NCBI GenBank assembly: GCA_944358415.1
Contig: CALVRA010000013.1
Location: 1 to 33,490 of the forward strand
DNA length: 33,490 bases
Reading direction: 5' to 3'
Source of the DNA: an uncultured Bacilli bacterium
Lineage (GTDB): Bacteria > Bacillota_I > Bacilli_A > RF39 > UBA660
The translations under genes were made by a program, and so were the position numbers. Shown piece after piece: positions 8,002 through 16,390 of this stretch (its first letter is position 1; every line of letters starts with the position of its first letter). The notes beneath the pieces are model-generated. The model was given only the letters and a program-made list of their open reading frames with translations, had not been told where the DNA came from and ran no database searches.

Positions 8002-8580
8002 TTAACCGACTGCAATACCCACAGTAAAGGCGCTATTAGAAATACTACCAAAAGAGCTAAAATTTTCTCCTGCCGATTCATAAACACGTCCTTGCTGATC
8101 TACTACATATATATTATTGCCAGATGCAGCTATACCTGCAGCAGGAGCAACAAGAGAAGCACCACCAAAAAAACTAAAATTTCCTCCTGCCGATTCATAA
8201 ACACGTCCTTGCTGATCTACTACATATATATTATTGCCAGATGCAGCTATACCTGCAGCAGGAGCAACAAGAGAAGCACCACCAAAAAAACTAAAATTTC
8301 CTCCTGCCGATTCATAAACGTCTCCACGCTGATCTACTACATATATATTGCCACTACCACTTGAACCACCAGCTGATGAGCATACCTTACATTTCCCATA
8401 TAGTTCATCTATTGCTCCTTGAACATCGGTTGCATTTAACTTACTTGATGAATTATCATAAGTAACTTGATTAGATGGAAAATATGTTACAGCATATACA
8501 CATGTCGTACCACCTATAAATATACCTAATATTAATAGAAAAATCTTATTTTGAAAGATTTCTTTAATTTTATTTTTCAT
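8002..8580 (-). CDS. Secreted protein with 39-residue tandem repeats (cassette 1)
   Basis: 192 aa. A basic start and hydrophobic segment (about 12-30) form a signal peptide or anchor. A segment YFPSNQVTYDNSSSKLNATDVQ... ending GAIDELYGKC (33-64) follows, nearly the same as in the interrupted gene at 14937-15845. After a GS-rich linker come two repeats of 39 residues (78-116, 117-155) beginning NIYVVDQ.G.VYESAG and a third, diverged copy to the end. The repeats (short strands, NIYVVD and GIAASG) resemble beta-propeller blades, but three are too few for a ring. The function is unknown; an exported or surface role is inferred. It is divergent from an XRE regulator 120 bp away. Start: ATG 8580 after GGAGG. 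Confidence 0.8.
   Translation of the reverse strand: MKNKIKEIFQNKIFLLILGIFIGGTTCVYAVTYFPSNQVTYDNSSSKLNATDVQGAIDELYGKCKVCSSAGGSSGSGNIYVVDQRGDVYESAGGNFSFFGGASLVAPAAGIAASGNNIYVVDQQGRVYESAGGNFSFFGGASLVAPAAGIAASGNNIYVVDQQGRVYESAGENFSSFGSISNSAFTVGIAVG
8071..8319. repeat. Perfect 117-bp tandem repeat within the secreted-protein gene
   Basis: 8071-8187 and 8188-8304 are identical over all 117 bases. The identity runs a further 15 bases into a third partial copy, which then differs (CGTCTCCACG against CACGTCCTTG) and stops at about 8350. The unit is 39 codons, so gain or loss of copies keeps the frame. Confidence 0.93.
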
Positions 8581-8607
8581 TGTTATTTCCTCCTATTTTC
8601 TAATAAG

Positions 8608-8636
8608 AGAATAACATATTTATTTTATTTTGTCAA
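8608..8636 (-). promoter_or_regulatory. Promoter of the cassette 1 secreted protein
   Basis: Minus strand TTGACA (8631-8636), 17 bp, TATTCT (8608-8613), with a TG-extended -10. The ATGTTATwCT stretch and the following GAAAATAGGAGGAAAT leader are shared with cassette 2. Confidence 0.75.
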
Positions 8637-8679
8637 TTTCAAACATCACACTGATAATGTAATATCTTTTGGGGAGTGT

Positions 8680-8685
8680 TACTAT
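8680..8685 (+). promoter_or_regulatory. -10 box of the cassette 1 regulator gene
   Basis: TGTTACTAT is a TG-extended -10 box whose end is 15 nt before the ATG at 8701, giving a leader of about 8-9 nt. The -35 region is weak. Confidence 0.45.
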
Positions 8686-8700
8686 TTTATTGGTGATTTT

Positions 8701-8979
8701 ATGATAGCAAACAGAATAAAAATGCTTAGAGAAAATAAAGGATTATCACAAAAAGCTTTAGCTGATAAACTTGGAATAACAAGGTCTAGTGTTAATGCAT
8801 GGGAACAAGGCATTTCTGTCCCTTCTACACAATATATTGTAGAACTAGCTACAATGTTTGAGGTATCTACTGATTATTTACTTAATTTTAAAAACAGTAA
8901 TTCAATTAGTATTGAGGGATTAAATGATAAAGAAGTTAAAATCGTTTTAGAGTTAATTGAGTATTTTAGGCAAAAATAA
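8701..8979 (+). CDS. XRE-family HTH transcriptional regulator (cassette 1)
   Basis: 92 aa. A complete Cro/cI-type helix-turn-helix fills residues 3-60 (RIKMLRENKGLSQKALADKL, then GITRSSVNAWEQGISVPS). A short C-terminal helix (LNDKEVKIVLELIEYF) may dimerise. It is divergent from the repeat protein and probably represses it, itself, or both; this is inferred from position only. A longer upstream reading frame exists from 8551, but GGTGAT before the ATG at 8701 and the match to the domain start decide for 8701. Confidence 0.9.
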   Translation: MIANRIKMLRENKGLSQKALADKLGITRSSVNAWEQGISVPSTQYIVELATMFEVSTDYLLNFKNSNSISIEGLNDKEVKIVLELIEYFRQK

Positions 8980-9005
8980 AACTCCGCTATTTTGGAGTTT
9001 TTTTG
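8979..9005. terminator. Shared bidirectional terminator
   Basis: AACTCC / GGAGTT stem with T-runs on both sides. It serves the XRE gene (plus) and the convergent CmpB-family gene (minus), whose stop codon lies in the loop. Confidence 0.75.
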
Positions 9006-9637
9006 TTATTTATAAATTTTAAATGTGGAAAAGCGTTTAGAAGTCTACGATTAAATATAGATTTGTTTTTAAGGATTTGTTTGACTGTTTCGGTATATTG
9101 ATCGGTAATATCTTTGAGGTTTGTATCTTTGGTGATTTTTATATTAGAAATTATTTTATATGAAACAATAATGTCTGTTAAGAAAATTATTAATATAATT
9201 ATCATAATTATACTAAATATAATTGATGATATGTTTTTAATTATTCTTAAGAAAAAGGGATTAAGAATATAGACTAAAATTAAACCAAGTAATCCAAATC
9301 CTAAAGAAGTGGTTAGGCTTACTCTTCCATTGATATGAAATTTATGGTCACTATAGTCCCACCATCTAGCATGGAAAAGTTTTTCCATTAAATAGCTAGT
9401 TATATATTCTAAAATAGTGCCCATTAGAAATGACATAATGAAAAGAACAATTGGGTCATCATAGTATTTTTTTAATAATAAGGTTATGAATAAAGCACCA
9501 AAGCCATATATTGGACACCATGGACCTATTAAAAAACCTCTTGCAGTTATTTTTCTTTTTTTAGATGATACAATTATTACTTCCATAAGCCAACCTAGAA
9601 TAGAATAAAGAATGAAGATATAGAAAATTTTAAGCAT
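8987..9637 (-). CDS. CmpB-family membrane protein (putative ABC-transporter type IV, PF06541-like)
   Basis: 216 aa with about five hydrophobic segments. The N-terminal half carries the family pattern FYIFILYSILGWLMEV, RGFLIGPWCPIYGFGAL, and the loop with RWWDYS and GRVSLTTSLGFG. The name comes from domain databases; transport has not been shown and there is no ATPase gene beside it. The C-terminal 60 residues are basic and cytoplasmic. It is monocistronic. Confidence 0.8.
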   Translation of the reverse strand: MLKIFYIFILYSILGWLMEVIIVSSKKRKITARGFLIGPWCPIYGFGALFITLLLKKYYDDPIVLFIMSFLMGTILEYITSYLMEKLFHARWWDYSDHKFHINGRVSLTTSLGFGLLGLILVYILNPFFLRIIKNISSIIFSIIMIIILIIFLTDIIVSYKIISNIKITKDTNLKDITDQYTETVKQILKNKSIFNRRLLNAFPHLKFINNKKTPK

Positions 9638-9694
9638 AATACTACCTACCTTTTTGAGTAATTTTACACTATTATTTTCTATTTGACAATAATT

Positions 9695-9796
9695 TTATTT
9701 ATTTCTGTGATTCACAATTACTGATGATTTTAATTTAAAATATTTTACATCATCTTTTATTTCATCAAAAATTCTATTTATCTTATCTATATCCAT
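9695..9796 (-). CDS. Possible 33-residue small protein or gene remnant
   Basis: ATG 9796 follows GGTGA by 6 nt and reads 33 codons (MDIDKINRIFDEIKDDVKYF and 13 more) to TAA at 9695. Upstream on the same strand TTGTCG, 16 bp, TAATAT could be a promoter. The amphipathic, acidic start looks like the beginning of a longer protein. It lies in the 301-bp gap between the CmpB-family gene and recU, which otherwise holds only the recU promoter. I do not recognise it. Confidence 0.3.
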   Translation of the reverse strand: MDIDKINRIFDEIKDDVKYFKLKSSVIVNHRNK

Positions 9797-9894
9797 ATTA
9801 TTCACCGGCTTTATGATAACACTCTATATTATTTTTTTCTATGCTTTCGACAATAGTAGCTATATTTAGTGTTTCTTAATTTTTTGTCAAGAAG

Positions 9895-9923
9895 TTGGCA
9901 AATTTTTGTAAATATAGTATAAT
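9895..9923 (+). promoter_or_regulatory. Sigma-A promoter of recU-ponA
   Basis: TTGGCA (9895-9900), 17 bp, TATAAT (9918-9923). The box ends 15 nt before the recU ATG, so the leader is about 8-9 nt and the GAGGTGGTG ribosome site begins almost at the -10 box. Confidence 0.8.
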
Positions 9924-9938
9924 TGAGGTGGTGTTAAT

Positions 9939-10505
9939 ATGACAAAAAATATGGGGGCAAATTTTAGAAATATAAATACTTACGCTAACAGGGGTATGAC
10001 ATTAGAGGCTGATATAAAAGCTAGTAATGATTATTATCTTATTAATGATAAAGCGGTTATATATAAAAAGCCTACGCCTATTACTATTTCGAAGGTTAAT
10101 TATCCTTCAAGGCGTGAGGCTGTTATTAAAGAAGGTTATTTTAGGACCCCATCAACGACTGATTATAATGGTATATATAAAGGAAAATACATTGATTTTG
10201 ATGCGAAAGAAACTAAACTTAAAACGGCTTTCCCTTTAAGTAATATCCATCCACACCAAATTAAACATTTAAATCAAATATATAAGCATGGTGGAATTGG
10301 ATTTTTAATTGTAAGATTTACAGTTCTTAATAAAACTTTTTTATTAACTATCGAAGATTTGATAAAATTCTTAGATGAGTATGACAGAAAATCTATTCCC
10401 CTATCATATTTTGAGGAAAATGGATATATAATTAAAGATAAATACAACCCTAGAGTTGACTATTTAGAGATTTTGGATAAGTTATATTTTGGAGGTAATG
10501 TATGA
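9939..10505 (+). CDS. recU: Holliday junction resolvase RecU
   Basis: 188 aa, normal for RecU. RecU cuts Holliday junctions during recombination and chromosome segregation in Firmicutes. Visible motifs: NRGMTLEADIKASNDYYL (glycine/Glu start of the nuclease domain), AVIYKKPTPI, TPSTTDYNGIYKGKYIDFDA continuing into KET (metal-binding Asp and Glu of the PD-(D/E)XK-like site), and FPLSNIHPHQIKHL. It overlaps ponA by 4 nt (ATGA), the same linkage as in Bacillus, where RecU was first called PBP-related factor A. Confidence 0.95.
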   Translation: MTKNMGANFRNINTYANRGMTLEADIKASNDYYLINDKAVIYKKPTPITISKVNYPSRREAVIKEGYFRTPSTTDYNGIYKGKYIDFDAKETKLKTAFPLSNIHPHQIKHLNQIYKHGGIGFLIVRFTVLNKTFLLTIEDLIKFLDEYDRKSIPLSYFEENGYIIKDKYNPRVDYLEILDKLYFGGNV

Positions 10506-13500
10506 AAGACTTGGTGGCTTTTTTTAAAAAAGATAAATTTAATTTACTAGTGCTTATTTTATCTGTTGCTATTTTTATTTTAGGAATTATTGCGGTTAAT
10601 TTTTGGATTTCTTTAATTGTATTTATTATTATTAATTTATTTTGGATTATTCCTTTTATTAAATGGAAACAAAAATTAGATAAAAGAAAAAAAGTTAAGA
10701 AGAAAAACAAGGAAGAAATTTTAGATGAAGAAGCTGATAAAATAAGTATGGCTTTGGAAGAAAGAAGTGAAAATGTGGCAAAAAAAGGTGGAAAGAAAAA
10801 GAAAACTAAAACTAAGTTAAGTAAGAAAATTTTATTAGGATTTTTAATTTTCTTCTTGATTTGCATTATTTTAGGAATTGTTTTCTTTATATTTATTGCG
10901 GTGACTGCTGGAAAGTTTGAACCTGATAAGTTATATTCTAAGGAAGCTAGTACTTTACTTGATAGTGATGGAAATGTGTATGCGAAACTTGGTACACAGA
11001 TGAGGCAAAAAATAGATTATGAGGATATGAGTGAAGAACTTGTTAATGCAATTGTGGCAACTGAGGATTCACGTTTCTTTGAACACAATGGTTTTGATTT
11101 ACCTCGTTTTATGAAAGCTTCATTTGGACAGTTATTAGGCCAGAATGCAGGTGGAGCATCTACGCTTACAATGCAGGTTTCTAAAAACCAATATACTTCT
11201 GATGTGGCCACTGGATTTGCAGGTATTAAACGTAAGTTTACGGATATATATATTTCAATGTTCCAAATAGAACCTAATTATTCTAAGGAAGAGATTTTAG
11301 AGTTTTATGCGAATTCATATTATTTAGGTAGTGGAGCTTATGGTGTTGAACAAGCGGCTGAGACATATTTTAATAAGGAAGCTAAGGATTTAAATGTGTC
11401 TGAAGCAGCGATGATTGCAGGACTTTTCCAATCACCAGTTTCTTATGATCCTAATATTAATCCTGAAAAAACAGAAAACAGAAGATTAGTTGTTTTAAGT
11501 TTAATGAAGAGACACGGTTATATTACTGATGAAGAATATAATATTGCGAAAAAAATGACTGTCGATAAAATTGTTATTAAAGGAAGAAGTGCGAATACTA
11601 GTAATGCAAAATATCAATCATTTATCGATAGAGTTGCGGAGGAAGTAAGTAGTAAAACTGGTTATGATCCTTATTCTTATTCAATGAAAATTTATACGAC
11701 AATGGATAGAGAACAGCAAGATAAGATTACAGCGATTATGGATGGAAGCAATTACAAATGGGAAAATGATAAGGTTCAAGCAGGTGTGATTGCGATGGAG
11801 ACTAAGACCGGAGCGATTGTGGCTATTGGTGGTGGCCGTAATAAAACTGGTGCAAGATCACTTAGTAATGCGACTGGTATATATAGACAGATTGGTTCAA
11901 CGGCTAAACCATTATTTGATTATGGTCCAGCTATTGAGTATTTAAATTGGAATACTGACCATCCAATTATCGATGATAAGACGACTTATAGTGATGGAAC
12001 TGAGATTAACAACTGGGATGGTAGATATAAAGGTATTATTACGATTAGACAAGCTTTAGTTGAGTCTCGTAATATTCCGGCTTTGAAAACGTTTAAGAGT
12101 GTTAAAAATTCTGATATTAAAGAGTTTGTTACTAATTTAGGTTTATCACCTGAGATTGCAAGTAATGATATGCTTCATGAGGCGCACTCTATTGGTGGTT
12201 ATGGTAATAGTAAAGATAAAACTGGTGAATCTCCAATGACTCTAGCAGCTGCTTATGCAGCCTTTGGTAACAATGGTGTTTACAATGAGCCTCATACATT
12301 TACTAAGGTTGTGTTTGACGAAAGTGGCGAGACTTACGAAAATGATTATGAACAGACTAAAGCAATGAGTCCTGAGACGGCTTATATGGTTACTGATATG
12401 CTTGTTGATACTGGTCAAAATGCTTTAGGAAGATATAATAATATTAATGGTTCTGAGTTTGCAGCTAAGACTGGTACGACTAACTTTGATGAGAAAACAA
12501 TGGAAGCGGCTAATTTACCAAGTAATGCGGTTAATGATTTATGGGTAGCTGGTTATAATGCAGACTATTCTATTGCGGTATGGTATGGATACGAGAACAG
12601 AAATGATGGTTATAACAGATTTGGTTCTAGCCAAAATTCTAGATTATTCCAAACTGTGGCTAAGAATTTCTTTGATAAGGATACAAAGTTTGAAAAACCA
12701 GATGGTGTGGTTGAGGTTACAGTTGAGAGAAATACTGGTTATTCAATGCTTCCAAGCGAAAATACACCTAGTGATATGAAAACGACTGAATTATTTAAAG
12801 AAAATAGCAAGCCAACTGAGGTTTCAGCTAGATTTAATACTTTATCAAATGTTACTGGTTTAAAGGCTAGTGTGAATGGTAATAAAGCAACTTTGAGATG
12901 GAAAGCTATTGGTACTCCTGATGCTTTAAATAGAAGTTATTGGAGTCCACTTGTAGAAAAGGCTTTTGCTTTATCTAAGGACCAAAGTACTTATTTATCT
13001 TATATTATGTCATTTAATAATGGTAGACTTGGTAATGTAGTTTATAATGTATATAGTAAAGAAGCTAGTGGTCTTAGATTACTTACAACAGTAAGTGGTA
13101 CCTCAGCTACAGTGAAACTTCCTAACGCTTCATCCCCTACTTTAGTTGTTAAGGCTAGTTATTCTAACTTTAAAGGGGCAGAAAGCTCTGGAGTTGAAGT
13201 TAAAGTTGATTATGAAGGTGTATCAGTTAGTGATGTGACTGCTATATTAACTGCTGATTCTACAGTTGAATTAAAAGTTCCATCTATATATAAAGAGCCA
13301 ACAAATCCAGTTAAGGTAACTTTAGATGGAGAAGATATTACTGATGATAGTGATGTTGATATTGAGTTAACTGTTACTGATGCGACAGGAACACCTATTG
13401 ATAATTATAGTTCTGTGGTTGGTAAAACAGCTGGAACTTATACATTTACTTATACAGTTACTTATCAAGGTGAGACAGTTACTACTTTGACAAGGACAGT

Positions 13501-13519
13501 TATTGTTAGTGAGGAATAG
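10502..13519 (+). CDS. ponA: Bifunctional class A penicillin-binding protein (PBP1A-like)
   Basis: 1005 aa. Unusually, two extra membrane helices (about 13-52) and a lysine-rich linker (53-108) precede the usual anchor helix (109-134). The glycosyltransferase-51 domain has ATEDSRFFEHNGFD (catalytic E188) and GGASTLTMQVSKN. The transpeptidase domain has STAK (catalytic S466), SRN (522-524) and KTGT (656-659), so both activities look intact. A fibronectin-III-like domain (about 780-905) and an Ig-like domain (about 910-1005) follow at the C-terminus. It polymerises and cross-links peptidoglycan outside the membrane. The start overlaps the recU stop. Family members with fewer extensions are about 900 aa or shorter. 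Confidence 0.95.
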   Translation: MKDLVAFFKKDKFNLLVLILSVAIFILGIIAVNFWISLIVFIIINLFWIIPFIKWKQKLDKRKKVKKKNKEEILDEEADKISMALEERSENVAKKGGKKKKTKTKLSKKILLGFLIFFLICIILGIVFFIFIAVTAGKFEPDKLYSKEASTLLDSDGNVYAKLGTQMRQKIDYEDMSEELVNAIVATEDSRFFEHNGFDLPRFMKASFGQLLGQNAGGASTLTMQVSKNQYTSDVATGFAGIKRKFTDIYISMFQIEPNYSKEEILEFYANSYYLGSGAYGVEQAAETYFNKEAKDLNVSEAAMIAGLFQSPVSYDPNINPEKTENRRLVVLSLMKRHGYITDEEYNIAKKMTVDKIVIKGRSANTSNAKYQSFIDRVAEEVSSKTGYDPYSYSMKIYTTMDREQQDKITAIMDGSNYKWENDKVQAGVIAMETKTGAIVAIGGGRNKTGARSLSNATGIYRQIGSTAKPLFDYGPAIEYLNWNTDHPIIDDKTTYSDGTEINNWDGRYKGIITIRQALVESRNIPALKTFKSVKNSDIKEFVTNLGLSPEIASNDMLHEAHSIGGYGNSKDKTGESPMTLAAAYAAFGNNGVYNEPHTFTKVVFDESGETYENDYEQTKAMSPETAYMVTDMLVDTGQNALGRYNNINGSEFAAKTGTTNFDEKTMEAANLPSNAVNDLWVAGYNADYSIAVWYGYENRNDGYNRFGSSQNSRLFQTVAKNFFDKDTKFEKPDGVVEVTVERNTGYSMLPSENTPSDMKTTELFKENSKPTEVSARFNTLSNVTGLKASVNGNKATLRWKAIGTPDALNRSYWSPLVEKAFALSKDQSTYLSYIMSFNNGRLGNVVYNVYSKEASGLRLLTTVSGTSATVKLPNASSPTLVVKASYSNFKGAESSGVEVKVDYEGVSVSDVTAILTADSTVELKVPSIYKEPTNPVKVTLDGEDITDDSDVDIELTVTDATGTPIDNYSSVVGKTAGTYTFTYTVTYQGETVTTLTRTVIVSEE

Positions 13520-13539
13520 TTTATACTATTCCTTTTTTG
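13512..13539 (+). terminator. Terminator of recU-ponA
   Basis: GGAATAG / CTATTCC stem with a short loop and six T; the left arm overlaps the last ponA codons. Confidence 0.8.
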
Positions 13540-13544
13540 TATTT

Positions 13545-13576
13545 AAAAAAACATCTATTTATTTAGATGTTTATAA
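13545..13576 (-). terminator. Terminator of dnaD-nth
   Basis: Minus strand arms AAACATCTA / TAGATGTTT followed by further T. The stem is built from the last nth codons and its stop. Confidence 0.75.
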
Positions 13577-14178
13577 TATTTACATATTTCTTTTAGTTTA
13601 CAATTTTCGCATTTAGGATTTCTAGCTAAGCAATAGTATCTACCAAATAATACTAATTGATGATGTCTTTTACACAAATCTTCTTTTTTGAATTTTTTAG
13701 TTAGTTTTTCTTCTATTTTTAATGGATCATCGTTCTCTTTAGCTAAGTTTAATCTTTTACTAACTCTTGAGACATGGGTATCGACGGCTATACATGGGAC
13801 ATTAAAAATATTACTTAAAACGACGTTGGCGGTTTTCCTACCTACTCCTGGAAGTGATTCTAAATAATTTCTATTATTTGGGAGTCTACCATTATAGTCT
13901 TTATCTAATCTTTTGGCTATTTCTATTAAGTTTTCGGATTTTTTATGGTAGGTTCCAATTGGTCTAATGATATTTTGAATATCTATGATGTTTGCTTTGG
14001 ATAAATCTTTTACTGTGGGATATTTTTTAAAAAGGATTTTAGTTACTTCATTTACTCTTTTATCAGTTGTTTGAGCACTTAACATAGTGGCTAAAAGTAA
14101 TTCATAGTCTTTGGTGTAATTTAGTTCACACCTTGGGTTTGGGAATAGTTCATCTAAGTAATTTTCAATCGTTATCAT
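13555..14178 (-). CDS. nth: Endonuclease III (DNA glycosylase/AP lyase)
   Basis: 207 aa. Removes oxidised pyrimidines and cuts at abasic sites. The helix-hairpin-helix is LESLPGVGRKTANVVLSN with the catalytic Lys, and AVDTHVSRVSKRL carries the catalytic Asp. The C-terminal cluster loop C-x6-C-x2-C-x5-C (CLARNPKCENCKLKEIC) binds a [4Fe-4S]. The ATG at 14178 overlaps the end of dnaD by 14 nt and starts where the family does; an alternative ATG at 14190 is possible. The longer frame upstream is dnaD read in another frame. Confidence 0.93.
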   Translation of the reverse strand: MITIENYLDELFPNPRCELNYTKDYELLLATMLSAQTTDKRVNEVTKILFKKYPTVKDLSKANIIDIQNIIRPIGTYHKKSENLIEIAKRLDKDYNGRLPNNRNYLESLPGVGRKTANVVLSNIFNVPCIAVDTHVSRVSKRLNLAKENDDPLKIEEKLTKKFKKEDLCKRHHQLVLFGRYYCLARNPKCENCKLKEICKYYKHLNK

Positions 14179-14794
14179 TGAGCCAGTCATATTCAAACAC
14201 TTCTTTCTTTGGTTTTTGTTTACTTCTTTTTTCTCTTTCTGTCTTAATATCATTTTCTGTTTTGATGCCTTTCTTTTTCCATTCAGATAATATTTTATCA
14301 ATATATCTTAGGTTAGTTACGCCATTATATATAGCTTCTTTTAAGGCAAGTTCAATGGTTTGTTCTTCATAATTATTATCAAGCCAAGCGCCTATAATTT
14401 CATATTCCATTGGGCTTAGGGTTCTTCCAAATTCTTTTTCAAACCTATCATATATGGTGGTTTTGGGTGCTTCTTTTTTATCGTTCATCATGGTTAAAAC
14501 AAGTTTTTTATACATTTCATCTAGGTCAATATATTCTTCACATACTTTACCTGATTTTACAGATATTTTAAGGACATCTTTACTGATTAGATTATCTATT
14601 AGTTTTAATGTATCAGGAAGTTTAATATTTAAATCTTTTGATATTTTTTCTGGATCAAATTCGTTTGATCCTAAAAGATAAATTAAAACAATTAATTCTT
14701 TATCGGTTAATTTTAGTTTTTTATAGTTTTGAAGTAGGGCCATTGGAACCATGATATGTCCATTTTTTAAAAGTTCTAATATTTTTCCTGTCAT
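14165..14794 (-). CDS. dnaD: DnaD-family primosomal protein
   Basis: 209 aa. The N-terminal winged-helix part (about 1-95, LTDKELIVLIYLLGSNEFDP) and the C-terminal DnaB/DnaD-like helical domain (about 115-190, FEKEFGRTLSPMEYEIIGAW, then YNGVTNLRYIDKILSEWKKKG) are both present. DnaD remodels DNA with DnaA and DnaB at the start of replication. The dnaD-nth order is the Bacillus order. AAGGTGAT directly before ATG 14794 supports this start over the GTG at 14803, which lies in the ribosome site. Confidence 0.88.
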   Translation of the reverse strand: MTGKILELLKNGHIMVPMALLQNYKKLKLTDKELIVLIYLLGSNEFDPEKISKDLNIKLPDTLKLIDNLISKDVLKISVKSGKVCEEYIDLDEMYKKLVLTMMNDKKEAPKTTIYDRFEKEFGRTLSPMEYEIIGAWLDNNYEEQTIELALKEAIYNGVTNLRYIDKILSEWKKKGIKTENDIKTEREKRSKQKPKKEVFEYDWLNDND

Positions 14795-14936
14795 ATTAAT
14801 CACCTTGTTATTTATTATAACTTAAATGGAGGTTTATTTACAATAATATAAAAGAAAAAGTCTAAAAATAGACTTCAAAAGTATTAAAAAAGCTTAAAAA
14901 TTGATGTGAATTCAATGTAGAAAATATTATTTTTCC

Positions 14937-15845
14937 CTATTTTATTGTGTATGGATTTGATTGACTACCATTTCCTCCTGTGATTTGGACTGATGAGGAA
15001 AGATAAAGAGTAGTAAAAACATTTCCAGCAAGATGATTGACATTACCATATCTATCAATATCTCCTGTAGATGAGATACGATAAACATAATCAGATGTTT
15101 CTGAAACAGGAGACAAAGTCCACAAATAATTATATCCTGATAAACTTATCCATGTTGATGGCTTACAATTAATTACATTATTATTATAAGAGTTCATAAT
15201 ATGACAACTACTTTTATTACTATTCGTTCTTAGATATTCAGATAAAGTAATAAATCCAATTTTTCCATTCCATTTGTTTGAATTTTCATTACTTACTTGT
15301 GTACTTATACTATTGTTATTCCATGTTACAGCGCCAATACTAAAGTCATGTGATACTATTTGGTTTTTGGCAGTAGAAGCCAATTGATTCAAATATGTAC
15401 CATTTAAATATGTGTTTAGTGTGGCGGGCCTTGCCCAATTATTTGAGCCTGATGTATCCCAGTAATCATTGGTTATACTACTTGCTTTCATTATTTTTAT
15501 TGTTCCATCACATTCGACTGAGACTATACGCCATGTTTCGTTATTAAAAGTTATGTAATTGTTGGGGGTTGCTCCTGTAAAGAAATATCAGCATTCGTAT
15601 GGGTCTTTTTCTAAATCAGTATTTTCTAATATTTGATCTCCTAATGTAGGGGGAAAACAAGTATTATAAAGTTCATCGATTGCTCCTTGGACATTTGTCG
15701 CATTAAGTCCACTTACACTATTATCATACGTTGTTTGATTTGATGGAAAATATGTCGCCGCACACACTACTACTATTCCTGATGTTATTAGACCTAAAGT
15801 AAATCCTATTAAATATTTCTTTGAAAATTCTTTTATTTTCTTCAT
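14937..15845 (-). pseudogene. Secreted DUF6273-like protein interrupted by an in-frame TGA (cassette 2)
   Basis: Read through, this is one 302-codon frame with a single stop, TGA at 15588-15590 (codon 86). Residues 1-31 form a signal peptide or anchor. YFPSNQTTYDN... to GAIDELYNTC matches the cassette 1 protein. After the stop the frame continues YFFTGATPNNYITFNNETWR, WARPATLNTYLNGTYLNQLA and GFITLSEYL, the look of DUF6273-type domains found in secreted proteins of gut Firmicutes. The rest of the frame is clean, so this is a fresh nonsense change, a recoded stop, or a sequencing error. Without read-through an 85-aa exported stub is made; an ATG at 15491 could restart but has no good ribosome site. 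The AGGAGGAAAT ribosome site of ATG 15845 is intact. A plain intergenic stretch of about 140 bp follows to dnaD. Confidence 0.75.
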
Positions 15846-15873
15846 ATAGATTTCCTCCTATTTTCCTATTTAT

Positions 15874-15882
15874 AGTATAACA
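15874..15882 (-). promoter_or_regulatory. Promoter of the cassette 2 secreted protein
   Basis: Minus strand TGTTATACT is a TG-extended -10 box; the -35 region is poor. The stretch AAATATGTTATwCT and the leader GAAAATAGGAGGAAAT recur upstream of cassette 1. Confidence 0.6.
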
Positions 15883-15932
15883 TATTTTTGTCGTATAGAA
15901 TAGCATTTTTATATAAAATTATATTTTATAGT

Positions 15933-15938
15933 TACAAT
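15933..15938 (+). promoter_or_regulatory. -10 box of the cassette 2 regulator gene
   Basis: TACAAT ends 17 nt before the ATG at 15956; no good -35 is visible. The leader would be about 10 nt. Confidence 0.35.
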
Positions 15939-15955
15939 TTTTATGGTGATATAAT

Positions 15956-16390
15956 ATGGAATTTAAAAGAATTAAGGCTATTCGTGAAGATAATGATTTG
16001 ACGCAGGCTGACATAGCACGTTTACTTGGTGTGAATAGGAGCGCTTATTCTTTATGGGAACTTGGAATTAATACAATTCCATTTAGTAATTTAGTAAATT
16101 TTTGTAATCATTTTAATTTAAGTTTGGATTATGTTTTAGGAATTAGTAGTGTTAAAAAATATACTTTAGTTAACGAGAATATTGATATAAAAATTTTGGG
16201 AGAGCGTTTAAAGTTTATAAGAAAAAAAGAAAGAAAAACACAGGAGGATATTGCAAGACTTTTAAATACTACACATTCTACTTGGAGTGCCTATGAAAAC
16301 AGTAAGGTTTTAATTCCAACTATATTTATTTGGAAATTTGCGGTGGAATATAAGTGTTCTATCGATTGGCTTTGTGGAAGGATAAATTAA
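15956..16390 (+). CDS. Regulator with two XRE-type HTH domains (cassette 2)
   Basis: 144 aa. Two Cro/cI-type helix-turn-helix domains lie head to tail: residues 4-62 (RIKAIREDNDLTQADIARLL, then GVNRSAYSLWELG) and 79-140 (RLKFIRKKERKTQEDIARLL, then NTTHSTWSAYEN). The two copies are clearly related, so the gene arose by internal duplication and one chain could mimic a dimer. It is divergent from the interrupted secreted-protein gene 110 bp away and probably regulates it; that is inferred from position. GGTGAT precedes the ATG. Confidence 0.88.
   Translation: MEFKRIKAIREDNDLTQADIARLLGVNRSAYSLWELGINTIPFSNLVNFCNHFNLSLDYVLGISSVKKYTLVNENIDIKILGERLKFIRKKERKTQEDIARLLNTTHSTWSAYENSKVLIPTIFIWKFAVEYKCSIDWLCGRIN

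Follow-up and report, generated by a model that had tools for sequence, protein, structure and literature searches.

Exported proteins with a constant module, private divergent regulators and exchangeable, partly retroelement-rewritten ends form a putative binding repertoire in an uncultured Bacilli bacterium

The variable surface families of mycoplasmas and the Neisseria pilins use gene conversion, and polymorphic toxins join a constant N-terminal part to an exchangeable C-terminal part. Diversity-generating retroelements (DGRs) with dispersed targets are described for Treponema denticola, where two isolates have 7 and 8 targets that are exported or lipoproteins and lie far from the core (PMC4891356), and for Thiohalocapsa PB-PSB1, whose targets are several or remote (PMC10907252). 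In Faecalibacterium phages, DUF6273 ends with a C-terminal variable part are DGR targets (PMC11792537), and DUF6273 targets are also reported from tentaclin-bearing phages (PMC10743442). Here we analysed a stretch of 33,490 nucleotides (the window; contig CALVRA010000013.1, in the following C13) of an uncultured Bacilli bacterium, whose genome assembly has 40 contigs totalling 1,199,080 bp (completeness 76%). The two loci A and B of the window probably belong to a repertoire, dispersed over the genome, of exported, putative binding proteins with per-site regulators, exchangeable ends and DGR-rewritten tips.

The system resembles those of T. denticola and Thiohalocapsa PB-PSB1 by a reverse transcriptase (RT) with accessory protein, adenine-directed variation and targets remote from the core. 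In contrast to them, the targets here come from a family that numbers 24-51 module genes in each of seven genomes; most members have a regulator of their own, and ends are swapped at fixed sites. The DUF6273 end with a variable part on its C-terminal side is shared with the Faecalibacterium phages, and gp68 of the phage FP_Taranis additionally has the YDN..SG..A.NVQ.AID segment, with genes for an Arc-like repressor and an RT close by. However, the phage DUF6273 targets are structural proteins, few in number and without signal peptide, whereas here they are chromosomal, exported, present in many copies and accompanied by divergent regulators. Dispersed paralogues, recombination and a constant N-terminal part with an exchangeable end recall the mycoplasma and Neisseria pilin families and the polymorphic toxins; unlike these, the present family has a regulator at nearly every site plus a DGR. 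Compared with them, no silent-copy array or immunity gene turned up here, no search having been aimed at either. Singly, DGRs, DUF6273 domains and small XRE regulators are all familiar. For their union, a chromosomal family of 24-51 modules per genome that combines private regulators, exchangeable ends and DGR-rewritten tips, no description was found in the open-access literature.

Both window loci show the layout claimed in a first-pass annotation of this DNA, an XRE gene divergent from the gene of an exported protein, at a distance of 120 bp (A) and 110 bp (B). The near-identical segment behind the signal peptide was likewise recovered (YFPSNQ[VT]TYDNS.S.LNAT[DN]VQGAIDELY..C, common to both), as was the difference between the regulators, one HTH_3 domain against two; both regulators score above the cut-off of HTH_3. 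The description of the C-terminal ends holds in that A carries 39-amino-acid (aa) repeats and B a DUF6273-like part; the latter, however, lies behind an in-frame TGA and remains under the cut-off of PF19789. The features are as follows.

8002..8580, minus strand: module gene A, exported protein of 192 aa, constant N-module plus 39-aa-repeat end (not DUF6273)
8389..8580, minus strand: constant N-module of gene A, comprising the signal peptide and YFPSNQ..VQGAIDELY..C
8047..8349, minus strand: tandem repeats of gene A, 117-bp (39-aa) unit, 2.6 copies, 95% matches
8581..8700, no strand: control region A, 84% alike at the orthologous L204 site (flanking bases compared too)
8701..8979, plus strand: XRE-type regulator A (ATG at 8701, stop at 8979), one HTH_3 (62.4 bits), regulator cluster 13 together with L204
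15657..15845, minus strand: constant N-module of gene B
15588..15845, minus strand: module gene B as far as the in-frame TGA
14937..15587, minus strand: DUF6273-like remainder of gene B, same frame, past the stop (open reading frame (ORF) 14937-15491)
15846..15955, no strand: control region B, with similar DNA at the orthologous sites L145 (84%) and L211 (90%)
15956..16390, plus strand: XRE-type regulator B, HTH_3 twice (46.7 and 29.0 bits), regulator cluster 5 together with L145 and L211

The TGA at 15588-15590 interrupts gene B, and the frame runs on to 14937. ORF 14937-15491 matches PF19789 with E 0.0066 and 16.8 bits (Pfam cut-off 23.5). An alternative genetic code was considered for this gene and not adopted: its tryptophans are encoded by TGG, and at the stop position tryptophan is absent from the paralogues. 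Gene B is a broken DUF6273 copy. For gene A, Pfam gives no DUF6273 match; the top match of its end is Tectonin with 21.9 bits, under the cut-off of 30. A BLAST-based template scan over the stretches retrieved found no candidate for either gene. Both genes currently are not DGR targets, A because the DUF6273 domain is absent from it and B because of the in-frame stop and the lack of a matching template.

According to the first-pass annotation, the layout would be coincidence if most genomic copies of the segment lacked a divergent HTH gene. We searched all contigs of the genome with the 63-aa N-terminal module, which gave 32 matches; 5 of these are second genes of tandem pairs, leaving 27 units. 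A divergent regulator, defined by a start within 350 bp of the module gene on the opposite strand, accompanies 25 of the 27 (23 helix-turn-helix (HTH), 2 ribbon-helix-helix), among them C1:83053 with a broken frame. The other two are C6:11872, with an HTH-looking gene directly upstream on the same strand, and C39:14627, which sits behind an exported 523-aa protein. Among related genomes, 78 loci could be named from the best 80 of 281, all from six metagenome-assembled genomes (MAGs) labelled 'uncultured Bacilli bacterium'. Twenty of them were left out with less than 350 bp of upstream sequence, and 43 of the 58 scored units have a divergent regulator (37 HTH, 6 ribbon-helix-helix). Both labels stem from profiles built from these same proteins. 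Pfam served as independent check, with an HTH_3 match at E 0.01 for 56 of 83 divergent ORFs. In the own genome an HTH_3 match lies upstream on the opposite strand in 20 of the 27 units, and 25 of the 46 HTH_3 matches in the own genome are located at modules.

As a control, the remaining genes of these stretches with a length of 150 aa or more were scored, with a divergent regulator at 6 of 398; four of the six turned out to be module genes or pieces missed by the pattern, and without module genes the count is 2/394. Restricted to the same gene length, modules have a divergent regulator in 18/21 own and 34/47 related cases. Chance pairing of module and regulator is thus ruled out (25/27 and 43/58 against 6/398), and the refuting outcome named by the first-pass annotation did not occur. 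At E 1e-5 the module occurs in 13 of 99 genomes (own genome and relatives), with 24-51 copies in each of seven genomes of the same genus, the own included, and 1-5 in six others; outside the family it was found in 0 of 39 genomes at this threshold.

Four tandem pairs (C36:427/673, C3:7083/6839, C30:1172/929 and C4:10230/10018) consist of a 66-74-aa ORF that comprises barely anything beyond the module, and behind it a second module gene, which carries an end. Two exported proteins that adjoin modules, the 523-aa protein upstream of C39:14627 (L035) and a 106-aa protein (L194), end in a variant of the segment (AQCALDELKK and AQCVIDEITK). A divergent regulator also accompanies the L035 gene itself.

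The regulators are diverse. At 55% identity 68 of them fall into 36 clusters, and the 25 own ones into 23, in agreement with the earlier proposal that each locus has its own regulator. Flanking genes are common to 43 of 49 within-cluster pairs (on both sides in 25), so that a cluster mostly corresponds to one site traced across species. DNA identity between same-site pairs amounts to 79-92% for the regulator (median 85, 43 pairs), 73-97% for the intergenic region (median 88.5, 40 pairs) and 67-84% for the N-module (median 76, 43 pairs), and the intergenic value is the higher one in 37 of 40 pairs when compared with the module. Moreover, the control DNA differs between clusters, 38 of 44 within-cluster scores exceeding the top of 1786 between-cluster scores; part of the likeness within clusters comes from shared descent. 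Among the retrieved loci compared, the N-module is nearer to a paralogue from its own genome than to its counterpart at the orthologous site in 42 of 44 units, and the C-terminal part in 35 of 44, with no match in 6. Taken together, these identities show regulator and control DNA to be mostly bound to the site and the coding parts to move between sites. Recombination via the shared module would be the simplest mechanism for this movement.

Swappable ends, likewise part of the first-pass proposal, are seen directly at orthologous sites, including both window loci. Locus A shares its DNA with L204 from 1.2 kb upstream to ~180 bp into the gene; past this break a repeat end stands opposite a DUF6273-type end, and homology returns downstream. 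Locus B shares its DNA with L211 from 545 bp upstream to 190 bp into the gene, after which the end differs in the manner of A/L204. The pairs C4:32742/L196 and L191/L193 show an end replaced as in A/L204, and the break point at replaced ends is about 170-190 bp into the gene throughout. Ends of differing type occur inside 6 of the 20 multi-member regulator clusters (2, 3, 5, 9, 13 and 19), for cluster 19 with flanking genes matched on a single side. A complementary case within the genome is C7:13662, which is 87% identical to locus B from 12 bp before the start to ~740 bp into the gene and not further; the regulators of the two fall into different clusters.

What the ends are can be named in part. 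That of C1:54184 is DUF6273 (PF19789, 45.6 bits, cut-off 23.5, E 9.1e-12), L172 reaches 23.1 bits, just under the cut-off, and L204 gives no match at E 0.01. In alignment A3, L204 has 64% identity with L206, for which a model built from 48 relatives has a mean predicted local distance difference test score (pLDDT) of 87. The model is closest to the DUF6273-bearing immunoglobulin A protease 9qa6 (Z 16.6, 2.9 Å, 192 residues); its similarity to C-type-lectin-like chains (Z 4-6) is unconvincing taken alone. Models of phage DUF6273 domains resemble C-type lectins according to PMC10743442. Other ends include DUF5050, with E 1.5e-9 and 2.9e-7 above the Pfam cut-off. A constant N-terminal part with an exchangeable C-terminal part is also the build of polymorphic toxins, and the family could on these grounds be a toxin-like or defence system whose constant export part delivers exchangeable ends that act on competitors or hosts. 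However, the nameable ends are DUF6273 and DUF5050 and no toxin domains, and DGR targets elsewhere are mainly binding proteins according to PMC8144416, which makes such a system highly improbable.

The N-module itself begins with a predicted signal peptide. Ahead of YFPSNQ, V-x-A is invariant in 20 of 20 rows. This pattern suggests cleavage there under the usual -3/-1 rule for signal peptides. No convincing relative of the module was found in the PDB (best E 0.89), and PHROG yields two weak matches. The mature segment resembles phage proteins: one search kept the best 80 of 224 viral loci, and another gave 11 phage records at E 0.02-0.9, five of them annotated as tail or virion proteins. By pattern, none of the 80 viral loci carries DUF6273 marks. 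In the Faecalibacterium phage FP_Taranis, the target protein gp68 holds the segment ISYDNSKSGISAANVQEAIDAL after 21 residues and a C-terminal DUF6273 (54.3 bits). The phage record labels it a DGR target, and genes for an Arc-like repressor and an RT come after it. On sequence grounds a phage origin of the module is likely, since gp68 joins the segment and DUF6273 in one DGR target with repressor and RT nearby.

From this likeness it might be argued that the loci are remains of many prophages or phage satellites, i.e. tail-fibre-like genes beside phage-type repressors: phages commonly carry XRE or Arc-like repressors and DGRs, and FP_Taranis holds the same trio. Against this, the N-terminus encoded by module genes is signal-peptide-like, a feature missing from the two phage target proteins, many units stand between the same genes at the same place in several species, and beside loci A and B no other phage structural gene was seen. 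We therefore consider prophage remains very improbable and retain the dispersed exported repertoire as the preferred reading.

The retroelement became apparent from four paralogues that are alike elsewhere and diverge at first and second codon positions over ~100 bp before the motif AVRP. A query with A at the variable bases gave 99% matches at C2:80169-80270, C1:53178-53308 and C4:31727-31857. Relative to this template, changes concern 17/36 adenines and 0/66 other bases in C20:15591, 18/36 and 0/66 in C39:14627, 20/36 and 1/66 in C1:54184, and 18/36 and 1/66 in C4:32742. Pooled, these are 73 of 144 template adenines against 2 of 264 other bases (combined p 2.9e-37, the genes being related to each other). 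All four exceed the criterion of 75% of mismatches at adenines quoted in PMC8144416. The same-length template test was applicable to 11 of 110 module sequences, and in two of these, L159 and L168, an adenine bias is absent.

Behind the template on C2 come the genes of a MutS-I protein (MSL; MutS_I 33.1 bits, cut-off 20.6), Avd and the RT. The RT has 386 aa and no stop (RVT_1 66.4 bits, cut-off 29.6); we take LPIGNMTSQ to be a DGR-type RT motif. Avd matches bAvd (45.4 bits, cut-off 40) and the PHROG entry 'Avd protein of DGR' (1.4e-15), and it scores 50.1 bits with the NCBIfam Avd model, under the cut-off of 80. An MSL with PF01624 is already known as DGR accessory protein (PMC10053308). Further template copies lie beside two targets: on C1 the target gene is followed by a template and a 136-aa ORF resembling MSL by eye, on C4 the target gene C4:32742 by a template alone. 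In these two targets, C1:54184 and C4:32742, the stop is followed after ~30 bp by a hairpin of an 8-bp stem and a GATA loop, and C15:13788 has a 7-bp A+T-rich stem; no GRNA-loop hairpin was found in the remaining 29 rows, C20 and C39 included. Hairpins of this kind are known from DGR targets (PMC3240598). The first-pass annotation mentioned neither the stop in gene B nor the tail-fibre likeness of the module nor the retroelement; the last is not visible in the window because template, MSL, Avd and RT are on another contig.

A second RT and an Avd-like protein (bAvd 45.2 bits, cut-off 40) adjoin the C4:10018/10230 modules, for which no template was found. The genome G019 has its own target and template, adjacent to each other. 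A second template in two other MAGs shows mismatches at adenines in 15/15, 14/15, 13/15 and 16/19 cases, in windows that were kept if at least 80% of mismatches were at adenines and in sequences picked by length; all 8 rows lead to one template pair among the 78 loci. In L142 the second template stands behind the target gene and ahead of Avd. There Pfam supports Avd alone, and no convincing Pfam match was obtained for the ORFs that stand where MSL, transposase and RT would be expected, the last truncated at the end of the contig. Raised third-position GC, the mark of a fresh variable region, is present in 24 of 60 cases in relatives.

Several side observations concern the template and its surroundings. 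In L115, L117, L128, L129 and L130 (G003, G026, G019, G011 and G006) the DGR template is interrupted at one and the same position, AACGTGTT, by a mobile element that carries tyrosine-recombinase ORFs and whose end sequence is repeated at each junction. It may target the conserved template core. The core template on C2 coincides with the 3' end of a TnpB-like ORF that is truncated (L056:3639-4301, IS200_TnpB 1.8e-43, residues 5-172). In L122 (G011 contig C31, ~1051-1155) the start of the sequence at the template position matches the template and the later part looks rewritten, as if the template had been overwritten by mutated copy DNA. A third RT gene (L055:4927-5886 on C9, RVT_1 83.1 bits) is retron-like by eye and lies outside the DGR.

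A number of observations weigh against an integrated repertoire. No divergent regulator was found at 15 of the 58 related units, in all of which a same-strand ORF ends 34-332 bp upstream. The regulators belong to different clusters in 4 of 29 same-site pairs matched on both sides, so that regulators are replaceable as well, and in 3 of 44 units the C-terminal part has the orthologue as its closer relative. Palindromes in the control regions are in mild excess only (17/61 at p<=0.05). Raised third-position GC is found in only 8 distinct own genes in a table of 23 anchored rows, where C3:7083/6839, C36:427/673 and C30:1172/929 each are one gene counted twice and some anchors (e.g. C4:71380, C13:8389, C1:89285) are in the wrong frame; genes without this mark look old or never made by the DGR. 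The RT orthologues of G003, G026 and G019 contain stops. Finally, only 4 of 32 own modules match a template in the own genome. This last count, together with the many DUF6273 ends that lack the base-composition mark, would suit ordinary exported paralogues with small local regulators, homogenised by gene conversion and touched by the DGR in few copies, without integrated system or switching. But differing end types at one site are replacement and not homogenisation, each site has private, conserved control DNA, and a second template system is present in other MAGs. Ordinary paralogy is hence an unlikely account of the family, and we continue with the dispersed repertoire.

A typical site of this repertoire consists of a small DNA-binding regulator, mostly XRE/Cro-like and sometimes of the ribbon-helix-helix type, a short private control region and the divergent gene, which combines the constant N-module (predicted signal peptide and phage-tail-fibre-like segment) with an exchangeable end, mostly DUF6273 and otherwise DUF5050-like or of other repeat type. 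Regulator and control DNA usually stay at their chromosomal site. The coding parts, as the identity pattern shows, are replaced or homogenised across sites, presumably by recombination via the shared module. In the DUF6273 branch the DGR, with template, MSL, Avd and RT on C2 and template copies beside two targets, has rewritten adenine-encoded residues near the C-terminal end of the domain in trans, as seen from the adenine bias, and the element may be active at present. The regulators may autoregulate, and being private they probably turn sites on and off singly, such that one or few variants would be made per cell. Displayed on the surface, the proteins would probably serve the extracellular binding of changing ligands, be it glycans, neighbouring cells or phages.

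In the widest interpretation, for and against which the chances seem to us evenly balanced, the receptor-binding protein of a phage has been converted, together with its DGR, into a set of receptors able to evolve in a bacterium of 1.2 Mb. Variation would then arise at three levels: ~25 fixed expression sites are under private control, whole ends are exchanged between sites at the constant module derived from a tail fibre, and the binding tip is rewritten at adenine-encoded positions. If true, this would make testable how a tiny genome maintains and deploys a large binding repertoire, and it would represent a route from a phage tail fibre to an exported cellular receptor.

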